Assembly (NCBI GenBank): GCA_961205875.1
Contig: OY540809.1
Location: 10,304,267-10,368,266, forward strand
Length of the DNA: 64,000 bases
Direction: 5' to 3'
From: Sialis fuliginosa
Lineage: Eukaryota; Arthropoda; Insecta; Megaloptera; Sialidae
Each line of letters opens with the position of its first letter. Position 1 is the first letter of the stretch. This document shows positions 10,960 to 62,578 of the stretch, piece by piece. The notes below the pieces were generated by a model, which was not told the origin of the DNA, searched no databases, and worked only from the letters and a program-made list of their open reading frames with translations. The position numbers and the translations under genes are program-made.

Positions 10960-11163
10960 CATTTGAATATTTCAACTGTTTTACAACACACGGTAATCCG
11001 TATAAGCGATAGTTGTAGCGGCAACAACCTCAGCCGCAGTTCATCGATTGCGCCAGCTACTACATACATACACTGTGGGTGCTGCCCGGCGCCAGAAATA
11101 AGCGTCGCGACGCTCTGCCGTGCACGTCATCAACATGCCCGGCTTTGATTCACGCTTTGTCAT
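10960..11163. other. GC-rich island split by the foldback transposon
   Basis: Roughly 150 bp of unusually GC-rich sequence ends exactly at the foldback insertion and resumes for about 30 bp at 15105-15140. On the minus strand, with the insertion removed, the flanks join across the 9-bp duplication. A short open frame crosses the junction, but its possible donors do not have the phase-1 form of the Rtnl1 first exons. It could be a promoter or non-coding first exon of Rtnl1. Confidence 0.3.
11155..11163. repeat. Left 9-bp target-site duplication of the foldback element
   Basis: CTTTGTCAT here and again at 15105-15113, immediately outside the inverted termini. Identical over all 9 bases. Confidence 0.9.
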
Positions 11164-11407
11164 ATGTATATAAAGTTAGCAGGGTACTTTTAGCAGGATC
11201 AAAAAAAAAGTATTTGTCATTTTGTCACTTTTTTGTCGCTATTTTGTCCCGCCAGAATTAATTTTGTACCTTGAGCCATTTTCAAAAAACTAAGACCCTG
11301 CTAACTTTAATCTAAAGTTAGCAGGGTTCGCGATATCTCAGCCGCTATTAAAGCTAGAGTAAAAATTTTTGTGTCCGAATTTGTTACTTGGGCAGTTCTT
11401 TCGGCTC

Positions 11408-11410
<3 letters not shown>

Positions 11411-11470
<60 letters not shown>
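11411..11470. repeat. T60 homopolymer in left foldback arm
   Basis: Sixty consecutive T. The mirrored tract in the right arm is A72. The exact lengths may be assembly or sequencing estimates. Confidence 0.9.
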
Positions 11471-11472
<2 letters not shown>

Positions 11473-11570
11473 GTTATAAATATAAGTAAATGAAGGTTAT
11501 AGCCAATGTATCTAATACACATTTATGAGTGAATTCTGATGAAAATTAGTGACTAATTACAACTAAACTT

Positions 11571-13758
11571 AAATTGAAGAATATTCTATCTATTTTACAT
11601 AAAACCTCCATAAAAATAATATGATTCCGGAAACAAATTATTTCAGGCTCTCGACTATTTAAATAAGGTCTAAATAAGACAATGACACTCATTTGAGTAG
11701 GGTCTGCTGAAAGTAACAAATTAAAAGTTCGTTTTAATATTTAAAATTGAAGAATATTCTGTCTATTTTACATAAAACCTCCATAAAAATAATATGATTC
11801 CAGAAACAAATTATTTCAGGCACTTAACTATTTAAATAAGGTCTAAAAAAGACAATGACACACATTTGAGTAGGGTCTGCTGAAAGTAACAAATTAAAAG
11901 TTCGTTTTAATATTTAAAATTCAAGAATATTCTGTCTATTTTACATAAAACCTCCATAAAAATAATATGATTCCGGAAACAAATTATTTCAGGCTCTCGA
12001 CTATTTAAATAAGGTCTAAATAAGACAATGACACTCATTTGAGTAGGGTCTGCTGAAAGTAACAAATTAAAAGTTCGTTTTAATATTTAAAATTGAAGAA
12101 TATTCTGTCTATTTTACATAAAACCTCCATAAAAATAATATGATTCCAGAAACAAATTATTTCAGGCACTTAACTATTTAAATAAGGTCTAAAAAAGACA
12201 ATGACACACATTTGAGTAGGGTCTGCTGAAAGTAACAAATTAAAAGTTCGTTTTAATATTTAAAATTCAAGAATATTCTGTCTATTTTACATAAAACCTC
12301 CATAAAAATAATATGATTCCGGAAACAAATTATTTCAGGCTCTCGACTATTTAAATAAGGTCTAAATAAGACAATGACACTCATTTGAGTAGGGTCTGCT
12401 GAAAGCAACAAATTAAAAGTTCGTTTTAATATTTAAAATTGAAGAATATTCTGTCTATTTTTCATATAAACCTACATAAAAATATTATGATTCTGGAAAC
12501 AAATTATTTCAGGCACTTAACTATTTAAATAAGGTCTAAAAAAGACAATGACACACATTTGAGTAGGGTCTGCTGAAAGTAACAAATTAAAAGTTCGTTT
12601 TAATATTTAAAATTGAAGAATATTCTGTCTATTTTACATAAAACCTCCATAAAAATAATATGATTCCAGAAACAAATTATTTCAGGGTCTCGACTATTGA
12701 AATAAGGTCTAAAAAAGACAATGATACTCATTTGAGTAGGGTCTGCTGAGAGTAACAAATTAAAAGTTCGTTTTAATATTTAAAATTGGCGAAAATTCTA
12801 TCTATTTTACACAAAACCTCCATAAAAATAATATGATTCCGGAAACAAATTCTTTAAGGCTTTCGACTATTTAAATAAGGTCTAAATAAGACAATGACAC
12901 TCATGAGATTAGGGTCTGCTGAGAGTAACAAATTAAAAGTTCGTTTTTATATTTAAAATTGACGAATATTCTATCTATTTTACATAAAACCTCCATAAAA
13001 ATAATATGATTCCAGAAACAAATTATTTCAGGGTCTCGACTATTGAAATAAGGTCTAAAAAAGACAATGATACTCATTTGAGTAGGGTCTGCTGAGAGTA
13101 ACAAATTAAAAGTTCGTTTTAATATTTAAAATTGGCGAAAATTCTATCTATTTTACACAAAACCTCCATAAAAATAATATGATTCCGGAAACAAATTCTT
13201 TAAGGCTTTCGACTATTTAAATAAGGTCTAAATAAGACAATGACACTCATGAGATTAGGGTCTGCTGAGAGTAACAAATTAAAAGTTCGTTTTAATATTT
13301 AAAATTGACGAAAATTCTATCTATTTTACACAAAACCTCCATAAAAATAATATGATTCCGGAAACAAATTATTTAAGGCTCTCGATTATTTAAATAAGGT
13401 CTAAAAAAGATAATGACACTCATTTGAGTAGGGTCTGCTGAAAGTAACAAATTAAAAGTTCGTTTTAATATTTAAAATTGAAGAATATTCAGTCTATTCT
13501 ACATAAAACCTCCATAAAAATAATATGATTCCAGAAACAAATTATTTCAGGGTCACGACTATTGAAATAAGGTCTAAAAAAGACAATGACACTCATTTGA
13601 TTAGGGTCTGCTGAGAGTAACAAATTAAAAGTTCGTTTTAATATTTAAAATTGACCAATATTTTATGTATTTTAAATAAAACCTCTATAAAAGCAATATG
13701 ATTCCAAAAACAAATTATTTCAGGCTCTCGACTATTGAAATAAGGTCTAAAAAAAACA
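11571..13758 (+). repeat. 173-bp tandem array, forward arm (about 12.6 copies)
   Basis: The marker AAATTGAAGAATATTC recurs at 11571, 11744, 11917, 12090, 12263, 12436, 12610, 12783, 12956, 13129, 13302, 13475 and 13648, a period of 173-174 bp. The first units alternate between two variants (CCGGAAAC with CTCTCGAC, and CCAGAAAC with CACTTAAC), so the higher-order period is 346 bp. Confidence 0.93.
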
Positions 13759-13767
13759 TAAGACATC

Positions 13768-14686
13768 ATAATATTTTTGTGGAGGTTTTATGTAAAATAG
13801 ATAGAATATTCTTAAATTTTAAATATTAAAACGAACTTTTAATTTGTTACTCTCAGCAGACCCTACTCAAAAGAGTGTCATTGTCTTTTTTAGACCTAAT
13901 TTCAATAGTCGAGACCCTCAAATAATTTGTTTCTGGTATCATATTATTTTTATGTAGGTTTATATGAAAAATAGATAGAATATTCTCAATTTTAAATATT
14001 AAAACGAACTTTTAATTTGTTACTCTCAGCAGACCCTACTCACATGTGTGTCATTGTTTTTTTTAGACCTAATTTAAATAGTTAAGTGCCTGAAATAATT
14101 TGTTTCCGCAATCATATTATTTTTATGGAGGTTTATATGAAAAATAGATAGAATATTCGTCAATTTTAAATATTAAAACGAACTTTTAATTTGTTACTCT
14201 CAGCAGACCCTACTCAAATGAGTGTCATTATCTTTTTTAGACTTTATTTAAATAGTCGAGAGCCTTAAATATTTTGTTTTCGGAATCATATTATTTTTAT
14301 TAAGGTTTTATGTAAAATAGATAGAATATTCGTCAATTTTAAATATAAAAACGAACTTTTAATTTGTTACTCTCAGCAGACCTTACTCAAATGAGTGTCA
14401 TTATATTTTTTAGACCTTATTTAAATAGTTAAGTGCCTGAAATAATTTGTTTCTGGAATCATATTATTTTTATGGAGGTTTTATGTAAAATAGACAGAAT
14501 ATTCTTCAATTTTAAATATTAAAACGAACTTTTAATTTGTTACTTTCAGCAGACCCTACTCAAATGAGTGTCATTGTCTTATTTAGACCTTATTTAAATA
14601 GTCGAGAGCCTGAAATAATTTGTTTCCGGAATCATATTATTTTTATGGAGGTTTTATGTAAAATAGATAGAATATTCTTCAATTTA
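13768..14686 (-). repeat. 173-bp tandem array, inverted arm (about 5.3 copies)
   Basis: The same unit as the forward array in opposite orientation; it runs to the unique segment of the right arm. It is shorter than the forward array, so the two arms are asymmetric. Confidence 0.92.
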
Positions 14687-14783
14687 AGGTTAGTTGTAAT
14701 TAGTCACTAATTTTCATCAGAATTCACTCATAAATGTGTATTAGATACATTGGCTATAACCTTCATTTACTTATATTTATAAC

Positions 14784-14860
<77 letters not shown>

Positions 14861-15104
14861 GAGCCGAAAGAACTGCCCAAGTAACAAATTCGGACACAAA
14901 AATTTTTACTCTAGCTTTAATAGCGGCTGAGATATCGCGAACCCTGCTAACTTTAGATTAAAGTTAGCAGGGTCTTAGTATTTTGAAAATGGCTCAAGGT
15001 ACAAAATTAATTCTGGCGGGACAAAATAGCGACAAAAAAGTGACAAAATGACAAATACTTTTTTTTTGATCCTGCTAAAAGTACCCTGCTAACTTTATAT
15101 ACAT

Positions 15105-15113
15105 CTTTGTCAT
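15105..15113. repeat. Right 9-bp target-site duplication of the foldback element
   Basis: CTTTGTCAT, identical to 11155-11163. Confidence 0.9.
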
Positions 15114-15159
15114 CGTGCATTTGCGGAAGCGCCCGTGAATAATATCGTTCTTTTGAACG

Positions 15160-15860
15160 TGATTGAAAAATATACAGGGTGGAACGTGATTGAAAAATAT
15201 ACAGGGTGTCCGGTTTATTATGGCCACCTCTGCTATATGGATATTCAAGATTTTTAACAAAATAACTAGGGATTTTTGGAGTTTCAAGTTTTTTTTTACT
15301 CGGAAAACATTAGAGAAAAAATGTTATTGTTTATTTTGGTCTGATAAAATTTGGAGAGTTAAAAAAAGTTTCTGGAATAATTTTCCTCAATTAAAGTCTA
15401 CAACAAAATTTAAAATATTTTTTTCTTTTCAAAATATTTCAAGAACGATGCATATTACGTGAAAGTTCTGTGCAATATTTTTGTCGAAGATTACATTTTC
15501 TAAAAGTTCATTAAAATTTTTGTAGTAAAATATTCGTTTACGAAGAAATATTTCCTTTTACGGAATTTTTTTACTCGGAAACCATCAACTTTAGAGAAAA
15601 AATGCTATTGTTTATTTTGGTCTGATAAAATTTGGAGAGTTAAAAAAAGTTTCTGGAATAATTTTCCTCAATTAAAGTCAACAACAAAATTTAAAATATT
15701 TTTTTCTTTTCAAAATATTTCAAGAACGATGCATATTACGTGAAAGTTCTATGCAATATTTTTATCGAGGATTACATTTTCTAAAAGTTCATTAAAATTT
15801 TTGTAGTAAAATATTCGTTTACGAAGAAATATTTCCTTTTACGGAATTTAGCATGAGAAA
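15160..15860. repeat. Tandem duplication with 281-bp period and 'acagggtg' motif pair
   Basis: GTGATTGAAAAATATACAGG occurs twice (about 15159 and 15187). It is followed by two direct copies of a roughly 280-bp AT-rich block (AGAGAAAAAATG at 15312 and 15593). The 'tacagggtgtcc' motif is common at ends of dispersed arthropod repeats. Open frames across it are AT-rich and show no domain. Confidence 0.7.
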
Positions 15861-61281: not shown

Positions 61282-62578
61282 TTGTAACTATATAAAATTA
61301 ACTTTAAAAAAAAAGTTGAACCGACTTCAAAAATAAAGCACTAAAAAGTATGAAATAATATTTAAAGAAAATTAATATCATCTACTAAATGCAATAGTTT
61401 TTAAGTAAATAGTTATTTACAATAAGATCAATTTATATATTCTTCTATTAATTAATTTTTAAATAATATTTTCTTTACGATATTAATGAAAATGAGTACT
61501 TAACATGTAAGGAATGTAAGGATTTATTTATAAAATATTAAAAGTTAACTACATAATCAAAATTACGATACATTTTTTGATGTCGGGGCGCAAATTTATA
61601 TAAGTACTATTTTTTCTTTATTATTATAAAATTATGGTAATTTAATTAAAAATTTTTTGAGTGCGCGTGGTATTGATTAGATTTTAATTTCAGAAAAGAT
61701 CACATGTACACATATTCCTCTCATCCTTTGGATAGTACGAAGAAGAAATTATTTTCACCCCATTTGTTTATGAACATATATGTAGATACCTTTTGAAATA
61801 TTAAAAAGTAACGTCATTATTTAACTAAAATAAAAAGACATTTATAAAACATATATAGTATTCAAATCTTATAGCTTATATTATTACTTGATATGTTCAC
61901 TTTCAACTAGTGTTACTTATTGTGAGGAATAAGTTTGTTTTCTCAATTGATTTAATTAAAAAACGAATTTCGATTTTTTCGTTATAGGTACCTATAAATA
62001 ATTACTATCTAAAATAACGTAAGTATTGATTTTCTTCGTAGATAATACAAAATATTGTTTTGCATTTGTGTAATTTGTCATTTATATTTATAGATCTATT
62101 GGTACTATACGTTAAACGTAGTATTGTTTTAAGAACGAAAACGATAGTTCCTTTTTTCTATAGTAAGTGTACTGTACCTATTGTATTTTAATTACGAAAT
62201 TTACTTATTTTATAGTTATTATTATAACTTCTTTTCCGAAATTATATTGTAGAAATTTGCGCCCCGACATCAAAAAATGTATCGTAATTTTGATTATGTA
62301 GTTAACTTTTAATATTTTATAAATAAATCCTTACATTCCTTACATGTTAAGTACTCATTTTCATTAATATCGAAAAGAAAATATTATTTAAAAATTAATT
62401 AATAGAAGAATATATAAATTGATCTTATTGTAAATAACTATTTACTTAAAAACTATTGCATTTAGTAGATGATATTAATTTTCTTTAAATATTATTTCAT
62501 ACTTTTTAGTGCTTTATTTTTGAAGTCGGTTCAACTTTTTTTTTAAAGTTAATTTTATTTTTCATTTTTTAGTTACAA
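61282..62578. mobile_element. Large inverted repeat (foldback-like), 1.3 kb
   Basis: Arms of roughly 310 bp (61282-61597 and 62253-62578) are almost identical in inverted orientation, including AACCGACTTC near each outer end and GTCGGGGCGCAAATTT at each inner end. The spacer of about 655 bp has no open frame. TTGTAACTA is shared at the extreme ends after an indel. No target duplication found. Confidence 0.8.

Follow-up and report, generated by a model that had tools for sequence, protein, structure and literature searches.

A complete foldback element of 3,941 bp lies in a 64,000-nucleotide stretch of the Sialis fuliginosa genome (contig OY540809.1, positions 10,304,267 to 10,368,266 of the forward strand), and the whole of that stretch is called the window below. 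The element, at window positions 11164-15104, is a copy of a genuine multi-copy transposon family, F1, whose identity as a foldback cut-and-paste transposon is near certain. With a probability of roughly 0.85, we read F1 as a non-autonomous DNA transposon of this kind that is mobilised in trans, most likely by a Mutator-like transposase, and whose arms have been expanded and copied.

Dispersed copies of a foldback family

The genome (392,097,322 bases in 20 contigs) was searched with the first 30 bases of the element, allowing up to 3 mismatches. We retrieved 83 matches (42 forward and 41 reverse) against none for the reversed control, which disposes of the possibility that the element has no second copy. 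These termini were sorted into 33 inverted pairs and 17 single ends; counted among the latter are C5:30929798, with a possible partner 6.8 kb away, and C1:33078407 and C1:33102485, which face each other 24 kb apart. Inverted terminal pairs with 9-bp duplications were what the original prediction had proposed to look for, and an exact 9-bp duplication was found at the expected edge in 28 of the 33, namely the window element, 17 pairs in one batch, L025, a 17.4-kb copy, L032, L035, L036 and five more (those of L035 and L036 were judged by eye). The duplication of L031 lies 4 bp beyond the called end, and that of L019 measures 8 bp. No target duplication was found in L030, L033 and L034. The 29 listed 9-bp target sites are all distinct and show no fixed motif, with an AT content of 0.67.

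Both ends of the 20 long elements are 97-100% identical to the window’s left end across the aligned part, mostly 237 bp. The lowest value, 97.0%, belongs to the left end of L023, and the right end of L027, whose arms differ at 32 positions, aligned across only 193 bp. The first 237 bp of the window’s terminal domain (T) have a match of at least 98% in 40 scored places among 117 candidates. A homopolymer tract begins at positions 243-250 in 37 of the 40 arms and at 236 in one, and a tract of at least 12 bases is absent in two; tract length ranges from 12 to 74. Apart from L019, each of the 20 elements has its own perfect 9-bp duplication, and their flanks (~160 bp per side) have no 16-mer in common. 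Given dispersed copies at distinct exact 9-bp sites with unshared flanks, a segmental duplication is excluded, and so is an assembly artefact, which the original prediction had named as a possible origin of the inverted arms.

The same comparisons bear on the view that the elements are fossils, transposition having ceased and the near-identity of copies coming from gene conversion between loci. The failure to find an autonomous copy and the short copies L030, L033 and L034 without duplications would suit this view, which is nevertheless improbable: the individual duplications and the unshared flanks speak against it, and ends this similar are more simply explained by recent movement. Far more improbable still is satellite DNA captured or inverted by chance, or an artefact, even though arrays of a 173-bp unit make up most of the element. 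Exact 9-bp duplications occur at many distinct sites, and a unit tag gave 827 genome matches (up to 1 mismatch; none in the control), of which 634 fall in the loci read and the window element; among the 100 tag places listed, all are at F1 elements. Escape of the unit as a free satellite was likewise considered and rejected, no free array being seen, with 193 of the 827 tags lying outside the sequence read and 100 places listed.

Every feature that had been predicted for the window element is present, at exact coordinates (Table 1): identical termini, a perfect 9-bp target-site duplication, mirrored homopolymer tracts and opposed arrays of the 173-bp unit. Its two ends form a perfect inverted match of 124 bp, followed by a one-base difference. 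The outer 307-nt arms are 100% complementary (rounded), and complementarity is 97% for a longer pair of 713-nt arms. In addition to the copy listed in Table 1, the core motif AAAGTTAGCAGGGT occurs inverted at 11295-11308 and direct at 11314-11327, and its copies are putative transposase recognition sites. Ends of this kind carry the string GTATATAAAGTTAGC. Likenesses between T and the unit, between T and the subterminal single-copy segment (SUB) and between SUB and the unit were rejected, since 25, 167 and 60 of 200 shuffles, respectively, scored equally well. The longest stop-free frame of the element has only 75 aa, in keeping with the prediction that it encodes nothing, and an Rfam search of the window returned no match. 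The foldback transposon originally proposed is borne out across the family by opposed long arms of tandem units between which a middle domain is small or absent, target-site duplications around scattered copies (28 of 33 pairs), arm lengths that vary between copies and between the two ends, and the lack of coding capacity in the copies read.

Table 1. Features of the foldback element in the window
Feature	Positions	Strand	Evidence or remark
Left 9-bp target-site duplication CTTTGTCAT	11155-11163		Identical to 15105-15113
Left terminal domain T, 247 bp	11164-11410	+	Outermost 124 bp recur perfectly, in inverted form, at the opposite end
Core motif AAAGTTAGCAGGGT, copy 1	11172-11185	+	Proposed transposase recognition site
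Poly-T tract, 60 bases, from element position 248	11411-11470	+	Repeat scan
Subterminal single-copy segment SUB	11471-11570	+	Present in other copies too
Direct array of 173-bp unit, 12.6 copies	11571-13758	+	Tandem-repeat scan
Central fold-back junction, where unit position 117 meets position 55 of the inverted unit	13758-13765		Common to 18 of 20 elements
Inverted array of 173-bp unit, 5.3 copies	13765-14685	-	Tandem-repeat scan
SUB of right arm	14686-14785	-	Part of inverted repeat
Poly-A tract, 72 bases, mirroring the poly-T tract	14786-14857	-	Repeat scan
Right terminal domain T	14858-15104	-	Inverted-repeat and end comparison
Right 9-bp target-site duplication CTTTGTCAT	15105-15113		Identical to 11155-11163

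Turnover and probable growth of the arms

The arrays flip at the same central point, to within 3 bp, in 18 of the 20 long elements. For this mapping, matches shorter than 31 bp were dropped, and false flips arising from the self-complementary unit positions 43-73 were disregarded by eye. The junction is found in both orientations, as expected under random insertion; the exceptions are L024, in which it is altered, and L027, from which one of the arrays has been lost. The simplest reading of one asymmetric junction in so many elements is a single founder inversion. Four elements (L014-L017) have an additional piece at the centre. Two diagnostic sites split F1 into two subfamilies, with both arms concordant in all 20 elements.

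Arms of these elements hold 0 to 38 full units, and the largest arrays, those of L011, comprise about fifty (36.2 and 13.5). Among the short copies, L032 spans 986 bp and has a 9-bp duplication, and L033 spans 902 bp; in both, T and SUB accompany a diverged unit and one to two units. In L034, a nested insertion is enclosed by arms of about one unit each. The T identity of these short copies is 85-94%; being more diverged, they are probably older, and they look like an earlier state of the arrays. The simplest reading of this series would be that arrays of one or two units grew until they held about fifty. The nested element in the old F1 copy L034 (about 730-1434) has ends like GGGGG(A/C)AGACCCA and is flanked by TTAA.

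Full-length units (n=558) were compared across their ~173 positions. The mean number of differences was 16.3 within the same arm, 16.4 between opposite arms and 17.6 between different elements. With units this far apart and ends 97-100% alike, array reshuffling outpaces the divergence of the ends, and the arrays are thus old mixtures of unit variants. Between the outermost left and right units of an element, the mean was 9.9 differences (n=19), compared with 17.1 between elements, and none of 5,000 shufflings of arm partners gave a value as low. These outermost units lie within one difference of each other in 7 of the 19 elements, and the first seven unit ranks of L015 differ by 0-1 between arms. 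Arm-to-arm copying of the outer arms probably explains this likeness best, and parental inheritance of already matching arms would account for part of it.

Several results weigh against arm copying. Over all units, the gap between the opposite-arm and between-element means is small. The likeness of the arms fades inward, to 16.4 versus 17.9 differences at rank 5 and 15.1 versus 16.9 at rank 6. Apart from the two diagnostic sites, the ends carry little signal of this kind: over the terminal 236 bp, only 19 of 40 arms have their partner among their nearest arms. Finally, 19 of 722 outermost pairs between elements are also within one difference; all 19 fall within three groups of evident relatives. 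L015 and L017 have 13 consecutive near-identical units in common.

A sister family, F2, with termini related to those of F1, came to light in a search with the terminal 22 bases at 3 mismatches. That search gave 136 matches against 18 in the control, and because of this background single weak ends from it were not trusted. The F2 ends, ACGTATATAAAGTTAGCGGGGA, gave 56 termini at up to 2 mismatches and none in the control. Duplications were checked in six F2 pairs, twelve more listed pairs of 0.8-2.7 kb lying outside this check: the 9-bp duplication is exact in four (L081, L082, L083 and L087) and matches at 8 of 9 positions in L089, and none was found in L085. The copies L083 and L089, on different contigs, share the target GTTATTCTA (exact in L083; in L089, exact on one side and 8/9 on the other), which may be chance or a common target repeat. 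L090 (C14:13933868, minus strand) is a foldback miniature of ~100 bp, F2-like at its ends and all but lacking an interior.

The arms of F2 are tandem arrays with a period of 148-160, and their unit is homologous to the F1 terminal domain (71-83% identity over matches of 34-127 bp, best E 1e-17). Matches of the F1 173-bp unit in F2 elements, of 17 to 28 bp only (E 0.002-0.008), were rejected as chance. Since the F2 unit resembles the F1 terminal domain and not the F1 unit, the two related families expanded different segments. The F2 unit holds an inverted partial core, GCTAACTT, which could fit extra transposase-binding sites within the F2 arrays; such sites have been proposed in the arms of Galileo and Tetris (PMC3573991, PMC4079207; here and below, papers are cited for the parts considered). 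No copy of the core motif was found in the F1 unit, even allowing up to 4 mismatches, so this role is unsupported for F1, a further point on the negative side.

Possible source of the transposase

Twenty long F1 elements and seven shorter pairs were read completely, a further pair, L025, up to 27 bp short of its end, five pairs at their ends and middle 1 kb, and the 17 single ends for ~1.5 kb inward. The longest open frame in the F1 pairs read has 96 aa (L027), and that in three F2 pairs scanned has 114 aa (L082, inside its array). The original prediction had looked to a copy with a MULE (Mutator-like element) or NOF transposase inside; none turned up in the F1 copies read, in a search that used no NOF model and left 12 F2 pairs unread. 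The 17.4-kb pair L022+L029 (C3:33342340-33359788) was rejected as an autonomous partner: it is an F1 copy with a nested insertion, and its longest open frame has 95 aa. That insertion has internal duplications, in which like frames recur at distances of 6.7 kb and 3.7 kb. Among the single ends, no recognised Mutator-like gene was present in the two longest frames listed for each. In Pfam searches, one of four single-end frames (L052) was C-type-lectin-like, and one of three further frames from L044/L054 was PIF/Harbinger.

Ten MULE-domain loci were detected in the genome (Pfam PF10551; 16 of 16 candidates scored), in a search whose control gave matches in 4 of 14 genomes. Among these loci, which may represent a Mutator-like source within the genome, are L072 (ZSWIM/FAR1-like), L073 (FLYWCH and MULE domains) and L077. 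Weak likenesses between T and two of the loci, L072 (E 0.002) and L075 (E 0.006), were rejected as short and AT-rich, the one at L072 being also wrongly oriented. L073 and L076 are close copies of each other (95% over 2.9 kb); the MULE genes of the two are open for 482 (L073) and 479 aa (L076), with a minisatellite of AAACAAACAAAC-rich blocks adjoining, and no terminal repeats were identified at either.

The case for a Mutator-like source has to be set against several observations. No transposase gene was found between the termini of any pair read. The sequence read at the ten MULE loci, ~3.2 kb for each, contains neither F1 core motifs nor F1 termini, and none of these loci lies within 100 kb of a listed F1 or F2 terminus. 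Beside F1 arms, a single transposase gene was found; it is PIF/Harbinger-like (DDE_Tnp_4, 90 bits, E 1.7e-25), and the arm at C8:183912 runs into it. At this locus (L044 with L054, C8:177450-183960), an arm of three units passes directly into the PIF/Harbinger gene and an opposite-strand frame, which we take to resemble the usual PIF/Harbinger partner and which had no Pfam match. No Harbinger terminal repeat was recognised at the join, and a mirrored F1 arm was not seen in 6.5 kb of sequence.

PIF/Harbinger elements produce 3-bp duplications and P elements produce 7-8-bp duplications, whereas 28 of the 33 F1 pairs have 9 bp. Because of this length, we take the PIF/Harbinger gene at C8:183912 to be nested or rearranged, and nesting or later rearrangement is also the simpler account of an arm with no mirrored partner nearby. 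Mobilisation of the foldback element by a non-Mutator transposase (P/Galileo-like, Merlin-like or PIF/Harbinger-like) is, accordingly, unlikely, although the junction at C8:183912 and the failure to find a Mutator-like gene with F1 ends would favour it, and the foldback form is convergent, Galileo being a P-superfamily element (PMC3573991). F1 probably belongs to the Mutator-like superfamily. This assignment draws on the 9-bp duplications, which lie within the MULE range of 8-11 bp (PMC6446971), on the usual placement of foldbacks, most of which have been assigned to Mutator (PMC4079207), and on the MULE genes in the genome. As no MULE locus with F1 termini was found, mobilisation by a Mutator-like transposase is what we infer from this evidence.

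For F1 as a trans-mobilised, Mutator-like foldback transposon, the following mechanism is proposed. A transposase supplied in trans, most likely Mutator-like in view of the 9-bp duplication, would bind the AAAGTTAGCAGGGT cores at the element ends, and the element would be excised and then inserted with a 9-bp stagger. From a short inverted ancestor with one or two units per arm, the arms would have expanded via tandem duplication and unequal exchange, and arm-to-arm copying inside the element, by gene conversion or fold-back repair, would keep the outer arms alike. F2 would have undergone the same process with a different segment.

Genomic surroundings and known foldback systems

An Rtnl1-like gene, which the matches indicate is real, has reticulon-domain exons at 598-813 and 981-1181 of the window, on the minus strand (E 4e-21 and 4e-22; the query was the human reticulon domain). 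The foldback element sits 5' of both exons. Of the original placement in an Rtnl1 intron, the exons are thus substantiated, and the intron is likely. Tandem duplications lie just beyond the element: 27 bp present twice (15155-15208) and a 263-bp repeat spaced 281 bp (15306-15849). A second inverted-repeat element, at 61292-62558, has 312-nt arms that are 99% complementary and a 643-nt spacer, with no 7-11-bp duplication at its edges. It adjoins a frame reading QGTTLDKTVIDHGKKVFAKGQAYVSL, which we take to resemble the end of a Helitron/PIF1-type helicase.

Drosophila FB elements have 9-bp duplications and inverted arms of tandem units, are mostly non-coding and have units far shorter than 173 bp. 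F1 resembles FB and FB-NOF in its long inverted arms of tandem units, its 9-bp duplications and its non-coding nature; it differs in that no NOF-like gene was found here and in that the F1 and F2 units, of 173 bp and 148-160 bp, are far longer. The close FB or MULE-NOF counterpart originally proposed, therefore, stands for architecture and duplication length, a likeness drawn from descriptions, while membership in that family is merely possible, no copy with a MULE or NOF gene having been found among those read.

Other published systems offer further parallels. Tetris of Drosophila virilis is likewise a non-coding foldback with 8-10-bp duplications, tandem units in its arms and an autonomous copy that was not found; it differs in having only three structurally complete copies, and its units also form free satellite-like arrays, which were not seen for the F1 unit in the part checked (PMC4079207). 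The Tm1 Mutator/Foldback elements of root-knot nematodes share composite arms, duplications of 8-10 bp (mostly 9 bp) and mostly non-coding copies, but include a single coding element with a MULE-like transposase and have an arm motif of ~14 bp (PMC3169594). In one subfamily of Galileo (P superfamily, Drosophila), arm length also shifts by tandem-repeat expansion, although its duplications are 7 bp long and its arms hold up to three repeat copies, compared with up to 38 full units per arm here (PMC3573991). Rehavkus occurs in arthropods and likewise has 9-bp duplications, with a minisatellite and with terminal repeats that measure 26-400 bp; unlike F1, with its opposed arrays and no gene in the copies read, it has a PHD-finger transposase and a minisatellite before one end (PMC6446971). 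The architecture of F1 is, thus, already known as foldback, and the closest elements in print are Tetris, Tm1, Galileo and FB.

The original prediction had taken the host for an apparent moth or butterfly, a view for which lepidopteran-looking repeat tails are the basis. Literature on foldback elements and Lepidoptera, judged by titles and abstract openings, describes no such element in that order, an absence that would count only for a lepidopteran host, and in the part of a monarch transposable-element paper considered, the word “foldback” appears in the reference list only. Complete MULEs are reported in 88 lepidopteran species in the parts of a survey considered, which counts only transposase-bearing copies (PMC13359780). 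A literature search on Mutator-like elements with 9-bp duplications and tandem and terminal inverted repeats in butterflies yielded no such family, the nearest match concerning a yeast, and strings of 13 to 14 bases taken from the ends of both families led only to an unrelated paper, on microRNA.

We call F1 a new foldback family with an unusually clear record of arm growth. A tentative extension is that transposition itself might build the arms, excision or repair copying arm onto arm and expanding any duplicated segment. If true, each family would be a mobile satellite factory, and F1, with its inner 173-bp unit, and F2, with its 148-160-bp terminal-domain unit, would be two independent outcomes from related ends. 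The origin, growth and likeness of foldback arms are little resolved, and at least one published case, Tetris, draws on three complete copies only (PMC4079207). The present genome offers dozens of near-identical copies that share one founding junction and whose arrays range from about 1 to about 50 units, as well as short, diverged copies in which units are few and a sister family in which another segment was amplified. Both the growth of the arms and copying between them, thus, become directly testable.

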